Below, piece by piece: positions 9,484-33,599 of a DNA stretch of 49,530 nt. The stretch comes from Endomicrobiia bacterium (GTDB lineage Bacteria > Elusimicrobiota > Endomicrobiia > DTEH01), in assembly GCA_025060535.1 (NCBI GenBank), contig JANXCA010000005.1:1-49530 (forward strand), in the 5' to 3' direction. How positions within the stretch are numbered: the first letter of the stretch is position 1; each line of letters opens with the position of its first letter. Position numbers and translations under genes: made by a program. The notes beneath the pieces were generated by a model that worked only from the letters and a program-made list of their open reading frames with translations, had not been told where the DNA came from and did no database searches.

Positions 9484-9948
9484 ATGATTATAGCAATTGC
9501 TTCTGACCATGCTGGATTTAGGATTAAAAAAGAACTGGTTGAGATGTTATCTCAAGAATATAAAGTTATAGATTTTGGAACTTTTTCAGAAGCATCTTGT
9601 GATTATCCTGACTATGCTAAAAAAGTAGCATTGGCTGTCAAAAATAAACAAGCAGATAGAGGTATAATTTTATGTGGAAGTGGTGAGGGTGTTTGTATTG
9701 TGGCTAATAAATTTAAAGGGATTATAGCTGGAGTATGCTACTCAGAAGAGGTGGCAGCACTTTTATCTTCACATAATTTTGCAAATGTGATATGTTTTCC
9801 TACTAGAGTAAAGTTAGAAAAAGAGATAAACTCTGAAATCCTTTATAGATGGACAAAGATATGGATTTCTACACCTAACTCTACTGAAGAAAGACATATA
9901 AGAAGGATAAATAAAATAAAAGAAATTGAAGAGGAAAATTTCAAATGA
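9484..9948 (+). CDS. rpiB: Ribose-5-phosphate isomerase B
   Basis: 154 residues, full length for the RpiB/LacAB family. It interconverts ribose 5-phosphate and ribulose 5-phosphate in the non-oxidative pentose phosphate pathway. SDHAG at residues 7-11 is the family start motif. LCGSGEGVCIVANK (63-76) carries the catalytic cysteine (C64), with Ser in place of the frequent Thr two residues on. SSHNFANV (95-102) matches the family's HN-ANV loop, though the next residues read CFPTR rather than CLGAR. Only 18 nt separate the tRNA from this ATG, so the two are probably co-transcribed. deoC, another enzyme of deoxyribose/ribose phosphate metabolism, lies two genes downstream. Confidence 0.93.
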   Translation: MIIAIASDHAGFRIKKELVEMLSQEYKVIDFGTFSEASCDYPDYAKKVALAVKNKQADRGIILCGSGEGVCIVANKFKGIIAGVCYSEEVAALLSSHNFANVICFPTRVKLEKEINSEILYRWTKIWISTPNSTEERHIRRINKIKEIEEENFK

Positions 9949-10908: not shown

Positions 10909-11544
10909 ATGAATAAAATTTCAAGCTTTATAGAGTATACTAACTTAAAACCCTACGCTACTAAAAAAGATATAATAAGACTTTGTAAACAAGCAATTAA
11001 GTATAATTTTTATGCTGTATGTGTTAATCCTTTTTATGTGAAATTATGCAAAAAAATTTTAGAAGGTACTCCTGTAAAAGTATGTAGTGTTGTAGGATTT
11101 CCGTTAGGAGCTACTACTACAGCAACTAAAGTTTTTGAAGCAAAACAAGCTATTAAGGATGGAGCAGATGAGATAGATGTTGTAGTCAATTTGTCAGCTT
11201 TGAAATCAAACGATTTAAAAAGTGTATATAAAGAAATAAAAACCTTACGTGAAGTTACTAAAAATAAAGTTTTAAAGTTGATAATAGAGACATGTTATCT
11301 TACAAAAGAAGAAAAAATTAAAATATGTAATATAGCAAAAAAAGCAAAAGTCGATTTTATAAAAACATCTACAGGATTTGGTAAATCTGGTGCTAAAGAG
11401 TCAGATGTTAGATTGATTAAATCTATTGTGGGAGAAAAAATAGGAATAAAAGCATCAGGTGGAATAAAAAATAAAAAAACAGCTTTAAAAATGATTAAAT
11501 TAGGTGCCACTCGTATAGGTACCTCTTCATTAATTAAGGACTAG
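10909..11544 (+). CDS. deoC: Deoxyribose-phosphate aldolase
   Basis: 211 residues, normal for DeoC, which cleaves 2-deoxyribose 5-phosphate to glyceraldehyde 3-phosphate and acetaldehyde. Visible motifs: IEYTNLKPYAT (8-18, usually IDHTLLKP), VVGFPLGATTT (61-71), ADEIDVVVN (86-94) with the general acid/base Asp, DFIKTSTGFG (149-158) with Schiff-base Lys152, and IKASGGI (180-186) with the second active-site Lys181. All catalytic residues are present. It sits between an envelope lipoprotein and the GGDEF protein, so the operon mixes nucleoside-sugar metabolism with envelope and signalling genes. Confidence 0.95.
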   Translation: MNKISSFIEYTNLKPYATKKDIIRLCKQAIKYNFYAVCVNPFYVKLCKKILEGTPVKVCSVVGFPLGATTTATKVFEAKQAIKDGADEIDVVVNLSALKSNDLKSVYKEIKTLREVTKNKVLKLIIETCYLTKEEKIKICNIAKKAKVDFIKTSTGFGKSGAKESDVRLIKSIVGEKIGIKASGGIKNKKTALKMIKLGATRIGTSSLIKD

Positions 11545-11549
11545 ATTTT

Positions 11550-12983
11550 ATGATTCATAAATGGGAAATAAAACCATTTAAAGAGAGAGAAAAAGTAGAA
11601 TATAGAATAAGAATAAAAGCACAAGAAGAAGATCTTCAACAGTTAAAGGAGTTTTTAAAAGAGAATAAAATAGAAATATCAAAAGAATTTCCTTCTTTAA
11701 GTACAGAATTTAATTATGTTCTGTATATAAGTAAAGTTTCTTTAGAAAATGTAAATAAGTTATCTTTATTACTTAAAAACTTATGCAATGATGGAAGTTT
11801 TATAGAAGAAACTACTTCTTGTAAAGATGAAGCTAACGGGTTAAAATACTTATATGAGGTACTTAAAGGAATGTATGAACTACCGGTAATTGGTGATAAT
11901 AAAAATTTAAAGGAAGAATACTATGATATCTTAAAAGAGGCTAGTAAGATGATATCTTCTATTACAGATTTTAGTCAACTTACAAAGATGCTTTTTAAGA
12001 TATCGCATCAATTAAATTATGATAAAGTAGTTATACTTCTTAGAGATGAAGATATGTTTAGTTTTGTAGATGGATATGGGATAGATAAAAGTATAACTGG
12101 TTTGTATAAGTTAGACCTGAGTATAGGTGAGATGATAAAAGATTTAGGTAAAATTATAAGAAAGGAAGAAATACCTATAGAAATTCTTAATACCCAGGAG
12201 ATATTTAAGATATTCCCAGTTGGAATTATAATTTCTTTGATTTCTGAAAAAGAAACAGAGGGCTTTATATTATTGAATGAAAAATCTTATTCTACAAAAG
12301 ACATAAGATATGATTTTGATTTATTAGAAATTATATCTTCACAAATTTCTTCTGTAATAAAAAATTTTCGTTTGTCAAAAGAAGCTATTACAGATACTTT
12401 AACAGGCACATATAGATATAACTACTTTATAAGAAGACTAAATGAGGAAATTTATAGAAGTGAATTGTATAAACACCCTTTAAGTTTATTAATGATAGAT
12501 TTAGATAATTTTAAAATAATAAATGACACTTATGGACATCAGGTGGGCAATGTAGTGTTAAGAGAAGTAGGTAGGATACTAAAAGAAAATACGAGAGTAA
12601 GTGATATTGTATGTCGTTATGGAGGAGATGAATTTGCTATAATTTTTCCTGAAACAAATATAGATGAAGCATTGAAGTCTGCAGAGATATTGAAAGAACA
12701 TATAAATAGTGTGGTTAAAATTACAAATGAATTACGACAGAAAATAGAAAAACTTGGATTAGAAATGACCTCAAAAATTTTTAATCCAAAAATTGTTGAT
12801 ACTGAACTAAAGGTTACTGCTTCTATGGGTTTAGCTTTTATAACTGGCAAAGAGAATAGAAGGATTACTGTAGAAGAGTTTGTTAATTATGCTGATAAAG
12901 CTTTATATTTATCTAAAGTAGAAGGAAAAAATAAAATAAGTATATGGAATGAAGAAGAAATCACAAAATTTTTAAATGAATAA
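11550..12983 (+). CDS. Diguanylate cyclase: novel N-domain + GAF + GGDEF
   Basis: 477 residues, no membrane segment, so cytoplasmic. Residues 1-90 form a small alpha/beta domain (MIHKWEIKPF start, EEDLQQLKEFLKENK helix, ETTS end) that is also at the N-terminus of the DnaA-like protein at 14794. Its strand/helix order suggests a ferredoxin-like beta-alpha-beta-beta-alpha-beta fold. Residues ~125-275 look like a GAF sensor. GGDEF spans ~282-465: DTLTGTYRYNYF, DLDNFKIINDTYGH, the active-site GGDEF at 358-362, and NYADKALYLSKVEGKN. The inhibitory I-site RxxD (R349-D352) lies exactly five residues before GGDEF, so c-di-GMP feedback is expected. About 20 extra residues (~392-415) interrupt the usual path before VTASMGLAF. 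It is predicted to make c-di-GMP in response to a GAF ligand. pilT follows by 15 nt. Confidence 0.9.
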   Translation: MIHKWEIKPFKEREKVEYRIRIKAQEEDLQQLKEFLKENKIEISKEFPSLSTEFNYVLYISKVSLENVNKLSLLLKNLCNDGSFIEETTSCKDEANGLKYLYEVLKGMYELPVIGDNKNLKEEYYDILKEASKMISSITDFSQLTKMLFKISHQLNYDKVVILLRDEDMFSFVDGYGIDKSITGLYKLDLSIGEMIKDLGKIIRKEEIPIEILNTQEIFKIFPVGIIISLISEKETEGFILLNEKSYSTKDIRYDFDLLEIISSQISSVIKNFRLSKEAITDTLTGTYRYNYFIRRLNEEIYRSELYKHPLSLLMIDLDNFKIINDTYGHQVGNVVLREVGRILKENTRVSDIVCRYGGDEFAIIFPETNIDEALKSAEILKEHINSVVKITNELRQKIEKLGLEMTSKIFNPKIVDTELKVTASMGLAFITGKENRRITVEEFVNYADKALYLSKVEGKNKISIWNEEEITKFLNE

Positions 12984-12998
12984 TAAGATAAAGAGACT

Positions 12999-14081
12999 AT
13001 GAAAACAAATATAGATCAACTACTACAACTTATGGTAAAAAAAGGAATTTCTGATATTCATTTTAAAGCTAACACTTCACCTCTAATTAGGATAAATGGT
13101 AAAATTGTATCTTCTAAGTATGAAAAACTTTCTAAAGAGACGATAGAAAATATAGCTTATGAGTTAATGAATGAAGAACAAAGAAAGATTTTTGAACAAG
13201 AGTATGAGTTGGATTTTGCTTATTCAGTAGAAGGGGTTGCCAGATTTAGAGTAAATGTTTATAGACAGAAGGGGACAATAGCACTGACATTAAGAGTGAT
13301 TCCTTTAGAAATAAAATCTTTTAAAGAATTAAATTTACCAGAGGATGTTTTAAAAAAGTTAGCAAGTGAACCAAGGGGTTTGATACTTATAGCAGGTATT
13401 ACTGGTTCGGGCAAAACCACAACGCTAAATGCTATGTTAAATTATATAAATGAGAATTTTGAGTATAATATAATCACTATAGAAGATCCGATAGAATATT
13501 ATCATACTGATAAAAAGTCATCTATTTCTCAGAGAGAAATAGGTTCTGATACAAAATCTTTTAAAAATGCACTTAAGTATGTATTAAGACAAGATCCAGA
13601 TGTTGTTGTTATAGGTGAAATGCGTGATTTTGAGGCTATTTCTGCTGGTATTACTGCAGCTGAGACAGGTCATTTAGTTCTCTCTACAATTCATACAATT
13701 GATGCTGTACAAACAATTGATAGAATAATAGATAGCTATCCTCCTCATCAACAAAAACAAGCAAGAGTACAGATTTCTAATGTATTAAAAGGTATAGTGG
13801 CACAAAGATTATGTAATTTAAAAGATGGTTCAGGAAGAATACCTGCTGTTGAGGTTCTTATAGGAACTTCTTTTGTAAGAAAACTTATATTAGAGAACAA
13901 AACTCAAGAGCTTTATAAGGCTATGGAAGCTGGAGAGTATTATATGATGAATACTTTTGATCAGTCTCTGCTTAAGTTATATAATTCGGGATTAATTACA
14001 TTTGAAGAGGCATTAGATAAAGCTACAAATCCTGAAGACTTACAATTAAAACTTCGTGGAATTTCTCAGATAAGAGGTTAA
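12999..14081 (+). CDS. pilT: Type IV pilus retraction ATPase PilT
   Basis: 360 residues, typical PilT length. This hexameric motor at the inner-membrane pilus base depolymerises the pilus for twitching, adhesion or DNA uptake. Visible: N-terminal PAS-like region with SDIHFKA (18-24); Walker A GITGSGKT (133-140, Ile in place of the common Pro); Asp box ITIEDPIEY (159-167); Walker B VVIGEMRD (203-210); His box HLVLSTIHT (225-233); and the conserved ISNVLKGIVAQRL region. The absence of an N-terminal PilB-type domain argues for PilT rather than PilB. No other pilus gene is nearby, so the flanking GGDEF, 235-residue and DnaA-like genes are the best candidates for regulators. Confidence 0.93.
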   Translation: MKTNIDQLLQLMVKKGISDIHFKANTSPLIRINGKIVSSKYEKLSKETIENIAYELMNEEQRKIFEQEYELDFAYSVEGVARFRVNVYRQKGTIALTLRVIPLEIKSFKELNLPEDVLKKLASEPRGLILIAGITGSGKTTTLNAMLNYINENFEYNIITIEDPIEYYHTDKKSSISQREIGSDTKSFKNALKYVLRQDPDVVVIGEMRDFEAISAGITAAETGHLVLSTIHTIDAVQTIDRIIDSYPPHQQKQARVQISNVLKGIVAQRLCNLKDGSGRIPAVEVLIGTSFVRKLILENKTQELYKAMEAGEYYMMNTFDQSLLKLYNSGLITFEEALDKATNPEDLQLKLRGISQIRG

Positions 14082-14089
14082 CTAATAAA

Positions 14090-14797
14090 GTGGATTATAA
14101 AGATAAAAAAGTTGAAGAGATATTAGAAGAGTTAAAAACTGTCTTAGATTCTATCACTAAATCAGGTAGTAAAACATTACAAGAGGAAGGTTTTAAAAAA
14201 ATAGAAAATATAAAAAATGTTTTAAAATCGGAAGATATAGAAGTAAAAGCTGAAGAACAAATCTTTTCTAAAAACAAATTAGATTCGACAGAATCATTGT
14301 TATCTAAAGGTGAGAAGCAAAAAGATGAGAAAGAAAATATAATAAAAGAAAAAACATCATCAGATGATAAGACAAAAAAGGACGAAAAGACAATTTTACA
14401 GGATAGAAAAGATGAAAAGTTGTTAATAAAAACTATGCTTGTATTTCCATCAATTTTGCAAGATGCTAAAAATGAATTTTTTGATAATATAAATTCTACT
14501 TTAAAACGTGTTAGCAAAAAAAATATAGAGATTATAAGTGAAGCATGTGTTGGTTATAATTCTTTAGGTAAAGATGTTTTTTTGCAATATAATTTGATAA
14601 TTGAAAAAATAAAAATTTATAATTTAAGTGTTTTTATTTTAATAGTAAATGAAAATACTCCTGAAGTTGAGGAATTTATTAAGAAAATTTCTTCATTTGT
14701 TCTTTTAGCAAAGAGTATAAGCACAAAAGAATTAAAAATGAAGTCTACATATTTAGATCTTTCTATAGATTTACTTTTAACTATAAAACAACAATGA
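14090..14797 (+). CDS. Unrecognised protein; charged linker plus alpha/beta domain shared with DnaA-like neighbour
   Basis: 235 residues from a GTG start at 14090, 8 nt after pilT; no earlier start is available. Residues 1-50 are helical, 50-112 are a Lys/Glu/Asp/Ser-rich, probably disordered linker, and 112-235 form a folded domain. Its strand/helix order (IKTMLVFP; long helix; IEIIS; helix; LSVFILIV; helix; [20 protein letters not shown]) follows the C-terminal domain of the DnaA-like protein at 14794, which ends [14 protein letters not shown]. The two appear to be paralogous domains. No catalytic residues stand out. The gene overlaps the DnaA-like gene as ATGA, so stoichiometric translation is likely. 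A partner or adaptor of the DnaA-like ATPase is the simplest guess. No function is assigned. Confidence 0.78.
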
Positions 14798-16566
14798 TTT
14801 CTGCTTGGGAATTAAAATATTTTTCAACTGAGAAATATCCAAACAGGTATAGACTAAGAATTAGGTGTGCTTTAGAAGATTTAGAAGAGTTATGTAATTT
14901 TCTTAAGGATGAATTAAGTTTGGACATTTCTCCGCCTTTTAATGTTTTATCTTCAGATTATAATATAGGTATTTTTATATATGACTTACCAGTAAATATA
15001 AAAAACAAACTTGTAGACAAAATGTTTTCTATTTGTAAAAATGGGATAGTTGAGGATACTACATCTTTGTCTAATGAAAATCCTCAACAGCAAAAAGTTT
15101 CAAAAAAAGACACTTTTCCTGATGATTTAGGAAGTGTACTTACTGAGTTGGTTGAACAATTAAGTTCAAGAGCAACCGAAGAAGAAAAAGTTTCTAAACA
15201 AAGTATTTTTAGTGGTATGCCTTTAAATCCTAAATTTACTTTTGAGAATTTTGTTGTAGGAGCTAACAACAGGTTTACTCACGCTGCTGCTTTAGCTGTA
15301 GCAGAAAATCCTGGTAAAGCATATAATCCATTGTTTATATATGGTGGTGTAGGATTAGGTAAAACTCATCTTATGCAAGCAATAGGGCATTATATTAAGA
15401 AAAAAAGACCTCTGCTAAAAGTTGTGTATATTCCGGCTGATAAATTTGTTACACAGGTAATAGAAGCAATAAAAGCTGGTAATATTCAGATGTTAAGAGA
15501 TGCTTATATAAATGTAGATGTTTTATTAGTAGATGATGTTCAATTTATGGCTGGCTCTGAATCTACACAAGAGGAGTTTTTCCATATATTTAATACATTA
15601 CATCAATATGGAAAACAAATAGTTCTTACAAGTGACAGGCCACCAAAACTTTTATCTACTCTTGAAGACAGATTAAGATCCAGATTTGAATGGGGTCTTA
15701 TTGCTGATATAAAATCTCCTTCTTTAGAAACAAGAGTCGCTATTCTTAAAAAGAAGGGAGAAGAAGAGCATGTTAATGTAGATGATAATATTCTTTTATA
15801 TATAGCTTCTAAATTAAAGTCAAATATTAGAGAACTTGAAGGATTTCTTAAAAGAATCACAGCATATGCTACCTTGAATAACACACCTATAAATATGGAG
15901 TTGGTCAAACAACTTATGAGTGAGTTGTTGCCTGAGGAAGAGCTTACAGAAGAAGAGAAAGCATTATTAGAAACTAAAAAAGAAAAAATTGAAGAAAAAC
16001 CTAAAGAAGAAATAAAACCGCCACAGGAAGTTCCTACTCCTTCTCAGGTAAAACAGAAAGAAGTTCAAACAATTTCTACAGAACAGATATATAATTCAGT
16101 ACAACCAACCCAACAAGTATCGTCTACCAAACAAAATATTTTAGAGGATCAAAAGTTTTATCAGGATTATGAAACAGGAGTAAATGTAGTAGAAGCAGCA
16201 TTTTTTTATCCTGAAGGTAAAATAGAGGAACTCAATTTAGTAAAACAAAAATTTGCTGAAATTATAAAAAAACATAATTTAAAATATAAATTAATAACAG
16301 CATTTGACAGACCATATATGTTAGAAAATATCAACTACAGGTTATTTGTAGAATTGTGCAAAACAAATAAAGTTAACATTTGTATAGTAATCTCTCCTCC
16401 TCCTAACAGTAACATTTCAGCGGAAGAATTATATAATAACCTTTTACCATTAATGGAGTCAGAAAATATTAGATTAGAATATATTTATTGGAAAGAAATA
16501 ACCAAAGAATATAGATATTTAAACCTGGCCTTAGATATTGCCTTGTCTAGATTTAAAATAATATAG
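14794..16566 (+). CDS. DnaA-derived AAA+ ATPase lacking the DNA-binding domain
   Basis: 590 residues. Residues 1-90 match the N-domain of the GGDEF protein at 11550. Residues ~145-375 are a clear DnaA-type AAA+ core: [12 protein letters not shown], Walker [10 protein letters not shown] (184-192), the DnaA-specific insert between Walker A and B, Walker B LLVDDVQF (244-251), sensor 1 LTSD (278-281), LEDRLRSRF with Arg297 as the candidate Arg finger, and sensor 2 NIRELEG (344-350). The insert carries LRDAYI, where DnaA has an FRxxYR-type motif for single-stranded DNA, so that function may be lost. DnaA domain IV (helix-turn-helix with a DHTTV-like motif) is absent. Residues ~385-460 are a low-complexity Glu/Lys/Pro/Gln linker, and 463-590 an alpha/beta domain like that of the preceding protein. 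It is not Hda: it is too long and has no clamp-binding QL-LP motif. It is unlikely to be the replication initiator; a c-di-GMP/pilus regulatory ATPase is inferred. Confidence 0.85.
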
Positions 16567-28029: not shown

Positions 28030-28637
28030 TGGAAAAACCAAAGTTTATTAATGAACTTATAAGTATTTTTAAAAGTTTTCCATCCGTAGGGCCTAAAGCA
28101 GCAGAAAGATTTACATATTTTTTATTAGATAATAGAAATTTATTATCTTCTTTTGTAAAAGTTTTAACTGAGATAGAAAATAATATAGTTAGATGTAAAT
28201 ATTGTAATAATTTTTCCTCAGAAAATCCTTGCCATATTTGCACAGATACTAAAAGAAATAATAAGCTTTTATGCGTGGTTGAAAAATATCAAGATATTTA
28301 TTCTATAGAAAAGACTGAGTATAATGGTTTATACTATGTATTAGGTGCGGTTATAAATCCTCTTGAAGGAAAGATGCCAAAAGATATAGATATAGAAGCA
28401 CTATATAGAAGAATAGTTGAAGTGGAAAAAGAATATATTCCTGACGAAGTTATTATAGCATTAGGATTTACAACAGAATCTGAAATTACATCTAATTTTA
28501 TCATAGAGTATTTAAAATCAAAAAATATAAAAATCAAGTTTTCTAGAATAGCTAAAGGACTTCCTGTTGGAGCTGATATAGAGTACTCTGATCCACAGAC
28601 ATTATCTTTTGCTTTTAAAAATAGAATATTGTTATGA
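28029..28637 (+). CDS. recR: Recombination mediator RecR
   Basis: 202 residues, normal length. RecR works with RecF/RecO to load RecA on gapped DNA. It has a helix-hairpin-helix (FPSVGPKAAERF, 17-28), a four-Cys zinc finger (Cys56, 59, 68, 71: CKYC, CHIC), and a Toprim domain starting at LLCVVEKYQDI with YYVLGAVINPLEG. The C-terminal GLPVGADIEYSD loop is typical. It lies between a sugar epimerase and an O-antigen ligase rather than beside dnaX, with 1- and 4-nt overlaps on either side. Confidence 0.95.
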   Translation: MEKPKFINELISIFKSFPSVGPKAAERFTYFLLDNRNLLSSFVKVLTEIENNIVRCKYCNNFSSENPCHICTDTKRNNKLLCVVEKYQDIYSIEKTEYNGLYYVLGAVINPLEGKMPKDIDIEALYRRIVEVEKEYIPDEVIIALGFTTESEITSNFIIEYLKSKNIKIKFSRIAKGLPVGADIEYSDPQTLSFAFKNRILL

Positions 28638-31219
28638 AAATTGAGAGATTTGAATTTCAAAGCAAGTTATATTTGATACTGGATAATTTTTTAAAGTATA
28701 CAATTCCTATATTTTATTTTTTAGTTGCAGTAATGTTTTATTTAAGAACTTACGATTCTTGTCAAATAAAAATTACAATTACCCAAATAGGTGGGACAGT
28801 TATAATTCTTTTATGGTTTATTAAGTTATTAGAAAATCTAAAAGAAGCAAAAAGTTTTTATTTCAATAATTGGCAAATAGTTGTTCCTTTTGTTTTATTT
28901 TTACTTTCAGGACTTCAATCTCATCTTTTTATGTCTCCGCTAAAGAAGGCTTCTGGTATGGAGTTGATCAGAAGGGTCATATATATGTTTTCTGTAATTA
29001 TAATTATGAAGGAAATAAATAGTATAGAAAAATTTAAAAGAGTAATTAAGTGGTTATTAGCAGCTTTATTTATTTCTACTTTTTATGGTATTATACAATT
29101 TTTGGATATAAAGTATTTTCCACCGAATCCTGCTGTAGGTCTTGATCCCTTTATATGGAGACAAGCTTTTGGAAATAGAGTTTTTTCTACTTTTGGCAAC
29201 CCTAATTTTTATGGAGACTTTCTTGTTGCAATAGCTCCAATTTGTTTAGCTTTGTTTATTTATCATAAAAAAATATTTTTTTTGATATTGTGGTTAATGA
29301 CTTTATTTAACACATATGTTACATATTCAAAAGGTGCCTGGATTGGATTTGTAGCAGGTTTTATTTATTTCTGTTATTTATACATTATATTTTTTCTTCA
29401 TACTAAAGCTCAAAAGATTAGACTTTATGTTTTTATCGCTAGTATAATTGCTTTAGTTATAACGAGTTGGGGTGTATATTTCCAACTAACCCAAAGAACT
29501 GATTCAGCTAAATTTAGAATTTATACTTGGCTTTCTTGTTGGGAAATGATTAATACTTCTCCGGTTTTGGGAACAGGTATAGGTACTTTTTACGTAACAT
29601 ATCCTGCTTGGAGAAGACCACAAATATTTTATATTGAAGGAAAACACAATACAGAGTCAGATCATCCAGAAAATGAGTATTTGGAAGTATGGTATGATGA
29701 AGGTACTGTGGGATTTGGTATTTTCTTATTTATTATAGTTTTATTAGTAGTCACTTCTATTAAAGCTCTGAAAAGATTTTCAGAAGAGGTAGCGATATTA
29801 GATAAGAAAGGAAAAAAGAAGATAATTTCTCAAGATATAAGAGCTTTTTATTTACTTGGGTTTTTGTCTGGGTGGTTAGGATCATTAACTCATAACTGGG
29901 TTTGTGTTTCTATGAGGTTTGTATCTTCTGGGACTGTGGTTTGGATGATGGCAGGGCTTATTTCTTCTTTAATAGTAAATAATCCACTTCCTGAGAGATC
30001 CAAAGAGGAAAATGTAGTTTCTTATTACTTTGCGCTATTTATTATATGTTTATTTTGGTTTTTTAATTTTATATGGTGGAAAATGACATTTGATGTTTCT
30101 TTAGTAGTTAGTATTGTTTTGTTTATTTTAGGGATTATTATAGAAGGTTCTCCGTTGAAACCGGTTAATTTAAAAGTGCCTTTTTCAGGTAATAGGTTAA
30201 CTGTTAAAGTAATACAAGTAGTTGGTGTGTTAATTTCAATTTATTTAATGTCTATATTTAGAGGATATTTTATAGGAGATATTCATCATAACATAGCAAT
30301 CTTTTTTTCAAAACAAGGTAATTGGTCTGAAGCACTCACTAACTATAACATTGTAGCAAAAAATAATCCTGGCTTCGTAATGTGTCATTATTTTATGGGT
30401 AATGTTTTTAATGATAGATGGAGTCTTAATAGAGAGTTTCGTCCGGAATGGGGAGACAAAGAAACAGACAAACCAATAGTTGAATTAGATCTTAATAAAC
30501 AAGGCAGAATAGATCCAGAAAGGGCAATTGCAAAATATCAAGATGTATGGAAGTTAGCACCTAATTATGTTCAAAGTCATCATCAAGCTGGAGTTGTATA
30601 TATGAAGTTAGGACTTCACTTTAAGGACATAGATATGCAGAAATCTATTTATTATTTTAATAAAGCTCTTGAATACTTTTGGAAGTATCATAAAATAGAC
30701 CCAATTTTCCCAGTTAATTATCAGAGAATGGCTTCAATATATCTAAACTTAGGTAATCTAGAGATGGCTGAAAAGGTTTTTAAAGGGCATTTATTTACGC
30801 AATGGTTATGCCAAAATCCAAAAGATATTATTAATCCAAAGAAGATAAAAACTCAAGAAGAAAAAATTAAATATGAAGAATTATTACAAAAGTTTGAAGA
30901 AGAAAAAAATTGGATCTGTTGTGACTATCATAAAAGACAACACTATTTGCTTTCTACTGAAGATTGGGCAAAAAGAAGAGCTAATGAATACTCAGATTCA
31001 TACTTACAGTTAGGAAGGCTTTATTTAAACAGAAACAATGAAGAAGCAGAAAAATTTTTTATTCGTGCTATTAAAACTTATCCACAAAATTTTATAGCTT
31101 GGAAAAGTTTAATAGCTTTATATCAACAATTAAATCGTACTGATAAGATAGAACAAACAATAAAGTGGTACCTACAAGAGTTCCCTCAAGATAAAGAATT
31201 GTCTAATTTAAAAAGTTGA
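28634..31219 (+). CDS. O-antigen ligase/polymerase-like membrane protein with TPR tail (copy 1)
   Basis: 861 residues. About a dozen hydrophobic segments lie between residues 20 and 550. The Wzy_C/WaaL signature is seen as STFGNPNF (near residue 183), YSKGAWIGF, and ENEYLEVWYDEGTVGFG in the periplasmic loop (copy 2 has HNE here). From ~552 to the end are TPR-like helices (GNWSEALTNYNIVAKNNPGF, LNLGNLEMAEKVFKG, LYLNRNNEEAEKFF). Such proteins ligate or polymerise undecaprenyl-linked glycans at the periplasmic face, onto lipid A or pilin-like proteins; the acceptor here is unknown. It overlaps recR as ATGA and is followed 7 nt later by a paralogue. Confidence 0.82.
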   Translation: MKIERFEFQSKLYLILDNFLKYTIPIFYFLVAVMFYLRTYDSCQIKITITQIGGTVIILLWFIKLLENLKEAKSFYFNNWQIVVPFVLFLLSGLQSHLFMSPLKKASGMELIRRVIYMFSVIIIMKEINSIEKFKRVIKWLLAALFISTFYGIIQFLDIKYFPPNPAVGLDPFIWRQAFGNRVFSTFGNPNFYGDFLVAIAPICLALFIYHKKIFFLILWLMTLFNTYVTYSKGAWIGFVAGFIYFCYLYIIFFLHTKAQKIRLYVFIASIIALVITSWGVYFQLTQRTDSAKFRIYTWLSCWEMINTSPVLGTGIGTFYVTYPAWRRPQIFYIEGKHNTESDHPENEYLEVWYDEGTVGFGIFLFIIVLLVVTSIKALKRFSEEVAILDKKGKKKIISQDIRAFYLLGFLSGWLGSLTHNWVCVSMRFVSSGTVVWMMAGLISSLIVNNPLPERSKEENVVSYYFALFIICLFWFFNFIWWKMTFDVSLVVSIVLFILGIIIEGSPLKPVNLKVPFSGNRLTVKVIQVVGVLISIYLMSIFRGYFIGDIHHNIAIFFSKQGNWSEALTNYNIVAKNNPGFVMCHYFMGNVFNDRWSLNREFRPEWGDKETDKPIVELDLNKQGRIDPERAIAKYQDVWKLAPNYVQSHHQAGVVYMKLGLHFKDIDMQKSIYYFNKALEYFWKYHKIDPIFPVNYQRMASIYLNLGNLEMAEKVFKGHLFTQWLCQNPKDIINPKKIKTQEEKIKYEELLQKFEEEKNWICCDYHKRQHYLLSTEDWAKRRANEYSDSYLQLGRLYLNRNNEEAEKFFIRAIKTYPQNFIAWKSLIALYQQLNRTDKIEQTIKWYLQEFPQDKELSNLKS

Positions 31220-31226
31220 TTTGTAA

Positions 31227-33599
31227 ATGAAATCTAAGTTAGTAAATTTTTTGTTTTATACTATTATAGTTGTTTCACCTTTGGTATTTTTTACTGATCT
31301 TACAAGGAACCCCTATTATTTCCAAATCGTCTTTGCACAATCAGGAATGGTCTTTTTGTGGTTGGTAGTTTTATTAAAACAGAAGGGTAAGATTATTCAT
31401 TATACTAATCCTTTTGAAAAACCAATGTTAATTTTTTATGGTTATGCAATAGTTAGTTGGTTATTTTCTATGTTTGTTTTAAATCATAACTATTATGTTC
31501 CACAACTCATTTATGACTCTATTAAAGTTTATGGTAAGAATTTCTTTTTTATGAGTATGTTTAATGAGGGATTTAAAAAATTTATTTTTACTGTTACTAA
31601 TATTATTTTGGTATATTTTTTTGCTACTAACTATATAAATAAAGAAAATTTTAAAAAGGTGTATTTTACTTTATTTATTGTAGGTTTTTTAGCAAGTATA
31701 TATGGTATTCTTCAGTACTTTGGTATAGAAATAATCTGGCCTAAAGTTCTTAATCCATTTGGGGGTAGATGTGTGTCTACATTTGGCAATCCAAATTTTT
31801 TGTCTTCATTTTTAATTTTGTTGTTTCCTTTGATGTTTGTTGAGTATATTTATAGTAGAAGTGTATTGATGTTTATATTTCTTATTATATATTATTGTGC
31901 ATTATTATCCACACTTACAAGGTCCTCTTGGTTAGGATTATTTGTAAGTTTAGTTTACATGTTAGGAATTTTATTTTTAAAAGAAAGAAAACTATTAATA
32001 GGAAATAAATACAGAGTAGCTATTTTATTTATATTTATGTCTATATTTTTTCTTTTGTGGCCTAAAAGCCCAGTTGGAGGTAATCCTTCTGTAGTAGAAA
32101 GAATTTTAGAAATCAGACAGGCAAAAGAAGTTTATGCTCCATTACATCAGAGATTTCTTATATGGCTTTGTGGTTGGGATATGATAAAGGAAAAGCCTAT
32201 TACAGGTAAAGGTTGGGGTTTGTTTGAGCTTTTTTATCCTTTTTATCAAGGTAAATATCTTTTTGTTAAGGAATTGTCCCATAGAACTCATGCCAATAAT
32301 GCTCATAATGAAATTGTTGAAATTTGGTCCCAGACAGGAACCTTGGGGTTGGGAATTTATATTTTATTTTTGATTTGTTTTTTTATTTATTCCTATAAGA
32401 TATTTAAAAAAGAAAAAAACTATCCACAAAAACTTTTTATCTTAGCTTTATCAAGTTCAGTTTTAGGTATGATTGTAGATAATCTGTTGAATGTTACGAT
32501 TCATTTTTGTATTCCAGCTTTTCTATATTTTTTTAATATAGGAAGTTTAGCTAGTTTTGATGATAGTAGAGAAAAAAAGGAGATATATTTTAAAGGATTT
32601 AGTAAATACTTTGTTTTGGTTATTGGTTGTTTAATTATCTTACGTCTTTGGTTAAATTTTTTAGGAGAGATAAATTACTTTAAAGGTTTTAAATACTCAA
32701 AGAGAAACGAATTAGAACAGGCATTGTATTATTTATCAAAAGCGAATAAATTTCAGAAATATGAGGTTAATAATAACTATGAGTTAGCAAACACATATGC
32801 TCGCCTCAAAAGATTAAAAGAAGCAATTCATTACTACTATGAAGCATTAGCAAGTAATTGTGGGTATGATGAAATACATTTTAATTTAGCTACGGTATAT
32901 GCTCAGTCTAACAATCCAGAAATGGCTAAACTTCATTATACTCAATCACTTTTTATCAACCCTTTATCAAAGGAAGCGTATATGGCTTTAGGTAGTATAT
33001 TTTTAAGTGAAATAGATAAAAATTTAAAATCAGCAATTAAGCTTTTTGAACAAGCAATTGTAGTTTTTCCTGAAGAAAAAGATTTTTATAACAATTTAGG
33101 ATATTTATATATAAAATCTAATGAAGATTACAAAGCATTAAAGTGTTATGAAAAAGCTCTAAAAATAGATCCCAATTTTGAGTTTGCTAAAAGAAACTAT
33201 ATTTTGTTATCTGATAAATTAAAAATAAAAGATAATATAATTATTACTTATGAAAGACTTTTTACTGAGATGATGAAAGATATAAAAGAAAATAAATTAT
33301 CTGAAGCAGAGTCTAAATGCTATGAACTTCTTAAAATTTTTCCTAATGATTATAATGCAAAATTTTATTTAGCTAATATTCTATTTTCAAAAAATGAATT
33401 TGAAAAAGCTGCTAAGTTATATAAAGAGATAATTTCAGGACAACCAGATAATTTGACTGTAAGATATAATTTTGCAGTTACATTAGTGAAATTACAAAAT
33501 TTTGCCGAAGCAGAACAGCATCTTAAATATATTCTTTCCAAACAACCCGATAATTTTCAAGCAAGAGCTTTATTAGATCAAATTAGAAAAAATTTTTAA
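31227..33599 (+). CDS. O-antigen ligase/polymerase-like membrane protein with TPR tail (copy 2)
   Basis: 790 residues, clearly related to the preceding gene. The same signature STFGNPNF again falls near residue 183, then LTRSSWLGLF and AHNEIVEIWSQTGTLGLG. Hydrophobic segments fill residues 8-~480; TPR repeats follow from ~494 (NYELANTYARLKRLKEAIHYYYEAL, with FYNNLGYLYIKSNEDYKALKCYEKAL later). Catalytic His/Asn/Glu of the HNE loop are present, unlike copy 1, which reads PENE. The pair may act on different donors or acceptors, or one may be regulatory. It closes this operon; a 119-nt gap leads to the cold-shock gene. Confidence 0.83.
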   Translation: MKSKLVNFLFYTIIVVSPLVFFTDLTRNPYYFQIVFAQSGMVFLWLVVLLKQKGKIIHYTNPFEKPMLIFYGYAIVSWLFSMFVLNHNYYVPQLIYDSIKVYGKNFFFMSMFNEGFKKFIFTVTNIILVYFFATNYINKENFKKVYFTLFIVGFLASIYGILQYFGIEIIWPKVLNPFGGRCVSTFGNPNFLSSFLILLFPLMFVEYIYSRSVLMFIFLIIYYCALLSTLTRSSWLGLFVSLVYMLGILFLKERKLLIGNKYRVAILFIFMSIFFLLWPKSPVGGNPSVVERILEIRQAKEVYAPLHQRFLIWLCGWDMIKEKPITGKGWGLFELFYPFYQGKYLFVKELSHRTHANNAHNEIVEIWSQTGTLGLGIYILFLICFFIYSYKIFKKEKNYPQKLFILALSSSVLGMIVDNLLNVTIHFCIPAFLYFFNIGSLASFDDSREKKEIYFKGFSKYFVLVIGCLIILRLWLNFLGEINYFKGFKYSKRNELEQALYYLSKANKFQKYEVNNNYELANTYARLKRLKEAIHYYYEALASNCGYDEIHFNLATVYAQSNNPEMAKLHYTQSLFINPLSKEAYMALGSIFLSEIDKNLKSAIKLFEQAIVVFPEEKDFYNNLGYLYIKSNEDYKALKCYEKALKIDPNFEFAKRNYILLSDKLKIKDNIIITYERLFTEMMKDIKENKLSEAESKCYELLKIFPNDYNAKFYLANILFSKNEFEKAAKLYKEIISGQPDNLTVRYNFAVTLVKLQNFAEAEQHLKYILSKQPDNFQARALLDQIRKNF

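Follow-up and report, generated by a model that had tools for sequence, protein, structure and literature searches.

Few bacterial proteins are as conserved as DnaA, and it is nearly always taken to be the replication initiator. What, then, is the role of a protein which carries a complete DnaA-type ATPase core, lacks the domain that reads the origin and is encoded in a genome with an ordinary dnaA of its own? This question is raised by a gene (14794..16566, forward strand) in a 49,530 nucleotide stretch of DNA, referred to here as the window (contig JANXCA010000005.1, positions 1 to 49,530, GenBank assembly GCA_025060535.1), from a 1.9 Mb draft genome of 235 contigs that belongs to the class Endomicrobia of the Elusimicrobiota. 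The 590 amino acid product, the DnaA/MID fusion protein DnaAL, represents a new family in which a DnaA core is joined to a domain of the Argonaute MID type, and probably serves as a switch in signalling rather than as an initiator of replication. Support for the family is good; its mechanism we infer. An earlier note on this DNA, made from the sequence alone, knew of no described family with this layout, and none was found in the family libraries or the open-access literature searched. As far as the search reached, no other AAA+ ATPase carries a MID-type domain, and DnaAL would be the first.

A DnaA core without domain IV

DnaAL consists of an N-terminal domain (N-domain, residues 1-88, 14794..15057), a linker, the DnaA-type AAA+ core (residues 143-382, 15220..15939), a charged and proline-rich linker which occupies the place of domain IV (residues 383-461, 15940..16176) and the C-terminal Argonaute-MID-type domain (C-domain, residues 462-590, 16177..16566), all on the forward strand. 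The core, which had been placed at residues ~145-375 by eye, was recovered by three matches: Pfam Bac_DnaA covered residues 144-304 (E 1.1e-70), B. subtilis DnaA (PDB 8btg) aligned with residues 137-382 (E 1e-94), and the NCBIfam DnaA equivalog model TIGR00362 aligned its positions 80-343 of 437 with residues 120-383, leaving positions 344-437, the domain IV part, unmatched. Since the TIGR00362 score (368.9 bits) exceeds the cut-off (343.9), automatic pipelines would name the gene dnaA and the genome would seem to have two initiators. DnaAL is an annotation trap, and it also offers an example of how the oligomerisation switch of DnaA might be put to a new use.

The absence of domain IV, already stated in the earlier note, was borne out by profile searches. 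Pfam Bac_DnaA_C gave no match to DnaAL at E<=1 and was found in 0/32 orthologues at E<=0.01. In a scan for the domain IV motif it was present in 95/95 canonical DnaAs and in none of the 43 DnaAL family members; a 96th entry of the canonical set turned out to be a truncated member of the DnaAL family. As far as the sequence can tell, this shows that double-strand origin recognition has been lost. The normal dnaA that was expected elsewhere in the genome was found on another contig (G000:C158, L002); it encodes 455 amino acids and has domain IV, so that DnaAL is a paralogue and not the initiator. A distant AAA+ match on a third contig (G000:C164:8311-8748, L004; 27% identity, E 3e-7) is possibly a DnaC- or IstB-type ATPase.

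It could be argued that the paralogue still serves replication, either by inactivating canonical DnaA in the manner of Hda or as a second initiator. Its DnaA core, scoring above the TIGR00362 cut-off, makes mixed oligomers with DnaA conceivable, and with Hda/HdaA it shares a DnaA-type AAA+ domain without domain IV. However, DnaAL is not Hda: it scored 112 bits against TIGR03420, where the cut-off is 194.8, its core is nearer to DnaA than to Hda, and with 590 amino acids and extra domains it is far longer than Hda (about 230), a difference in length that the earlier note had pointed out. Furthermore, the locus has no link to dnaN or oriC, the cumulative GC skew rises across the window without turning, the neighbouring genes encode PilT, a kinase and DeoC, and the core branches apart from DnaA. 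A role in replication is therefore very unlikely. That the gene is an assembly chimera, a truncated dnaA or a pseudogene might be suspected in a draft of this many contigs, but this is already refuted by the orthologues: dozens of independent genomes from many families encode a full-length protein of the same architecture, the reading frames being intact and the gene order conserved.

Residues for nucleotide sensing are retained and a single-stranded DNA contact is lost

To the bacterial DnaAs (PF00308, TIGR00362) DnaAL is about 43-59% identical over about 240 residues, and it shares all their nucleotide-sensing residues. The Walker A K/T, the Walker B DD, the Arg finger (R297) and sensor 2 (R346) were invariant in all 36 members of the main group, and sensor 1 is likewise present in DnaAL. 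Since the residues for ATP binding, inter-subunit sensing through the Arg finger and sensor 2 are conserved, the formation of ATP-dependent oligomers is probable. In a divergent group (n=7) Walker A and B were kept, sensor 2 was lost and the Arg finger was often lost.

The well-conserved single-stranded DNA contacts of E. coli DnaA are V211 and K243 (PMC8235120). Whereas the equivalent of V211 is a valine in 35/36 main-group members, that of K243 is S, A, G or V, and thus non-basic, in 36/36; among the 96 aligned canonical DnaA rows, one of which has a gap here, K or R stands at this position in 91. In DnaAL the B-motif positions are S-E-S (residues 255-257, 15556..15564, forward strand), where canonical DnaA has the contact lysine (K243 in E. 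coli) and often R or K (R245). While the loss of the lysine is evident, its effect can only be predicted: DnaA-type stretching of single-stranded DNA has probably been lost. The earlier note had based the same conclusion on a different segment, LRDAYI, thought to replace an FRxxYR-type motif. This argument was dropped, because the FRxxYR helix is not the published contact and the change is specific to the window protein. R235 of the segment is kept in 35/36 members and residue 239 is basic in 30/36, which makes I239 a quirk of this protein.

Compared to bacterial DnaA, DnaAL thus lacks domains I and IV and the B-motif lysine, has gained the N-domain and the MID-type domain, and forms a separate monophyletic branch. 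With neither domain IV nor the B-motif contact found, DnaAL is, judged by these residues and domains, not a DnaA in the functional sense. The proposal that it keeps nucleotide-dependent assembly without origin recognition fits the retained ATPase residues together with the predicted loss of double-strand, and probably of single-strand, DNA recognition.

The C-terminal domain is related to Argonaute MID domains

The alpha/beta domain that had been noticed at the C-terminus is real, while its relation to Argonaute had been missed. The AlphaFold model of the C-domain is of high confidence (predicted local distance difference test, pLDDT, 91.1; predicted template modelling score, pTM, 0.84), and in Foldseek it matched many Argonaute MID domains, among them those of MIWI (4p1z; template modelling (TM) score 0.69/0.73), AGO2, CpAgo, CbAgo, AaAgo and AfAgo. 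The top E-value belonged to lumazine synthase (1.7e-5, TM about 0.61). This identity is not preferred, since its TM score is below that of the MIWI MID and a sequence profile independently picked out an Argonaute; it was set apart by these two observations and not by profile-profile comparison. With single C-domain sequences, Pfam listed neither the lumazine synthase nor a MID family. A TIR-like fold, suggested by a weak PDB sequence match (TLR2, E 0.012), was supported neither by the fold search nor by hhalign.

The independent match came from a search of 151 genomes of a Fibrobacterota-type phylum with the C-domain profile, which returned a single gene (E 6.3e-8). It encodes a long prokaryotic Argonaute of 734 amino acids (L176:412-2616) that was matched in its MID region. 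The protein has a Piwi domain and is closely related to CpAgo and CbAgo (PDB E about 1e-170). Its genome is the sole Piwi-positive one among the 151. Profile-profile comparison by hhalign of the C-domain with the MID domains of 15 prokaryotic Argonautes gave a probability of 96.8% (E 2.9e-10), colinear across 116 columns; against full-length Argonautes the MID domain was picked out (94.8%), and without the Argonaute found by the profile the value was still 95.0% (E 3.9e-8). Twenty column-shuffled and one reversed MID profile gave <=0.9%, and profiles of receiver, RpiB, DeoC and PilT 0.1-1.1%. Taken together, the model, the fold search, the profile match and the controlled hhalign comparison demonstrate that the C-domain is homologous to Argonaute MID.

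The pocket that in Argonautes takes up the 5'-phosphate of the guide, with the residues Y, K, Q and K, was also compared. Both lysine positions are non-basic in 32/32 C-domain sequences, although the alignment is uneven at the first of the two; the Q-equivalent is Q in 14/28 and E in 13/28. Conserved instead are N577 (31/32) and D581 (32/32). Because the phosphate lysines are missing, a partner protein or some other ligand is likelier to be bound by the domain than a guide. The MID pocket of MpAgo binds 5'-OH guides without positive residues (PMC6279821), which makes binding of nucleic acid by the C-domain unlikely yet conceivable.

An Argonaute-like system for defence or sensing, which would depend on a guide oligonucleotide loaded by the MID-type domain and use the AAA+ core as effector, would account for the sequence homology and for the two MID-type proteins per operon. 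We regard it as highly doubtful. Neither DnaAL (Pfam) nor any other protein of its genome has a PIWI domain, and PIWI was above the cut-off in only 1/199 genomes of the phylum; the pocket lysines are lost, and the gene is inherited vertically in a housekeeping-type locus, unlike defence islands. As no PIWI was found in the genome, a split Argonaute whose PIWI protein is encoded elsewhere was also rejected. DnaAL is not an Argonaute: besides PIWI it lacks the PAZ and N domains, and an AAA+ ATPase is joined to its MID-type domain. The viral contigs searched contained no relatives of the C-domain, and the plasmids searched gave canonical DnaA matches only, among the matches listed. In homologues of the L047 group (L039, L041, L044 and L047) two CxxC...CxxC zinc-ribbon-like segments are inserted in the linker that joins the AAA+ core to the MID-type domain.

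Distribution and phylogeny of the family

Full-length orthologues of DnaAL were found throughout the Elusimicrobiota. The C-domain profile matched in 82/199 genomes of the phylum, 31 of them strongly (E below 1e-45); most of the other matches are Elusimicrobiaceae-type proteins of up to 1624 amino acids with a divergent core, and the N-domain profile revealed further divergent members in other families. Among the matches listed, none came from Endomicrobiaceae (f2) genomes. Outside the phylum, the C-domain was found in 15/16 genomes of the small candidate phylum that holds L047 (Sumerlaeota at NCBI), in 0/198 genomes sampled from the phylum of a Desulfuromonadales genome and in 0/199 from that of a Vicinamibacteria genome.

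In a phylogeny of AAA+ cores, the DnaAL cores were monophyletic and stood apart from all canonical DnaA sampled (support 100/99). A recent duplication of the Elusimicrobiota dnaA is not favoured by this separation, although a tree forced to join the two was borderline in the approximately unbiased test (p-AU 0.046), so that an origin from the dnaA of this phylum is conceivable. DnaAL is a paralogue kept by vertical descent across the phylum. Its ATP switch has been reused, its DNA-reading domain has been exchanged for one of Argonaute origin, and it has become tied to pilus and two-component genes.

Two divergent homologues, of 1097 amino acids (L147:3789-7079, in G034, a single contig of 1,643,562 bases) and 1624 amino acids (L151:6398-11272), come from Elusimicrobiaceae-type genomes. 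They carry core and C-domain at the C-terminus, and after them come ComM, DprA and, first, a lipoprotein-like gene.

The N-domain is shared with neighbouring proteins

The N-terminus is foreign to DnaA, as had been noted before, and it is shared with proteins of neighbouring genes, which had not been seen. It is an alpha/beta domain (beta-beta-alpha-beta-alpha-beta) with a fair AlphaFold model (pLDDT 84). Residues 1-95 are 38% identical (E 3.8e-10) to the start of a GGDEF (diguanylate cyclase) protein encoded upstream (11550..12983, forward strand), the first ~85 residues of which constitute the same domain; in the genome G054 the orthologue of this gene adjoins DeoC. In other genomes, profile matches place the N-domain also at the start of companion proteins, encoded between PilT and DnaAL, which end in a MID-type C-domain and lack the AAA+ core. 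The companion in the window (235 amino acids, 14090..14797, forward strand, overlapping the start of DnaAL by 4 bp) has no N-domain. A second and divergent MID-type domain makes up its C-terminal half (hhalign 97.4% to the DnaAL C-domain, 86.4% to prokaryotic Argonaute MID).

A PDB sequence search with the N-domain gave no match, and an eIF1/SUI1-like identity, the best Foldseek result, was rejected as not significant (E 0.03). One 922 amino acid family member (L125:7471-10239) carries a tandem pair of N-domains.

Gene neighbourhood and proposed function

The linkage of the locus to PilT and two-component genes is a finding that goes beyond the earlier note. In the window the order is RpiB - CsgG-like - DeoC - GGDEF - PilT - companion - DnaAL - ProRS. 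The PilT/PilU-family retraction ATPase (12999..14081, forward strand) scored 468 bits against TIGR01420 (cut-off 319), and the conserved upstream neighbours are a DeoC aldolase (10909..11544) and an isomerase which we take to be RpiB-like (9484..9948), both on the forward strand. Neighbours on the same strand were counted within 6 kb in 51 family loci, and histidine kinases in the 46 loci with at least 2.5 kb of flank. Upstream of DnaAL, DeoC was found in 32/51 loci, PilT in 26/51, RpiB homologues in 23/51 and companions in 18/51. Downstream, a histidine kinase was found in 30/46 loci, often with a 4-bp ATGA-type overlap (translational coupling) and, in most of those examined, with GAF domains; in 11 loci it is followed by a CheY-type response regulator. 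Many relatives thus show the order PilT - companion - DnaA/MID - histidine kinase - response regulator. The known systems which DnaAL accompanies as a conserved operon neighbour are those of type IV pilus retraction (PilT/PilU) and two-component signalling (GAF histidine kinase, CheY-type regulator), and no DnaA-derived ATPase in such a module was found in the open-access literature searched.

With PilT upstream and a kinase and regulator downstream in relatives, relay of a signal to the pilus is suggested. We propose that DnaAL is a DnaA paralogue that left replication and acts as a signalling scaffold, switched by ATP, in the service of DNA uptake or of type IV pilus retraction, a reading to which we would give an even chance. 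Predicted ATP-dependent oligomers would form through the retained core, the DNA-binding module having been swapped for a MID-type domain that would bind a partner protein or a ligand other than a guide. The N-domain is probably a docking domain, which would gather DnaAL, the companions and the GGDEF protein of the operon into one complex. Through this assembly, by relay or as a scaffold, a two-component signal would reach type IV pilus retraction and so serve surface behaviour or DNA uptake; in the family of the window protein, cyclic-di-GMP may provide a further signal of this kind.

Several observations weigh against this proposal. PilT was above the cut-off in 31/31 genomes with strong family matches; since the phylum commonly has PilT, this co-occurrence is weak taken alone, consistent with the proposal and not decisive, and many PilT-bearing Elusimicrobiota (Endomicrobiaceae and the families f18 and f19) have no family match. 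ProRS, not a kinase, follows DnaAL in the window, and in its closest relatives the kinase is also non-adjacent. The N-domain lacks a significant fold match. Moreover, RecJ next to DnaAL in one group and ComM or DprA nearby in another indicate that a role in DNA uptake is also possible.

The last point leads to a competence ATPase, which would assemble with ATP on incoming single-stranded DNA or, via the MID-type domain, on its end, and would work with PilT, RecJ, ComM and DprA. ComM was found downstream in 9 loci, DprA in 5 and RecJ in 4, and in three Endomicrobia loci (L119, L120, L136) RecJ is the gene right after DnaAL; PilT retraction powers DNA uptake in other bacteria (PMC6668835), AAA+ core and MID domain both come from nucleic-acid-binding families, and the 5'-OH guides of MpAgo offer a precedent for a pocket without positive residues. 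However, the DNA-contact lysine and the phosphate lysines are lost in every main-group core and every C-domain compared, and the commonest and tightest downstream partner is a histidine kinase and not a DNA enzyme. We consider this reading possible and clearly less probable than the signalling scaffold.

A further variant, that DnaAL and its companion sense the ends of RNA or DNA, appears improbable. Here the MID-type domains would bind a nucleotide or the end of an oligonucleotide and in this way control ATP-dependent assembly of the core, which would set pilus retraction or DNA uptake; if true, no known signalling system would resemble it.

Elsewhere in the genome, a second PilT adjoins two PilB-like ATPase genes (L155, G000:C202:1-12000), and hence the gene at 12999-14081 encodes an extra PilT paralogue outside that pilus cluster. 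In the window itself, two adjoining genes (28634-33599) encode large proteins, each of which has TPR repeats and a membrane part that is IctB-like (O-antigen-ligase-type); the two look like tandem paralogues.
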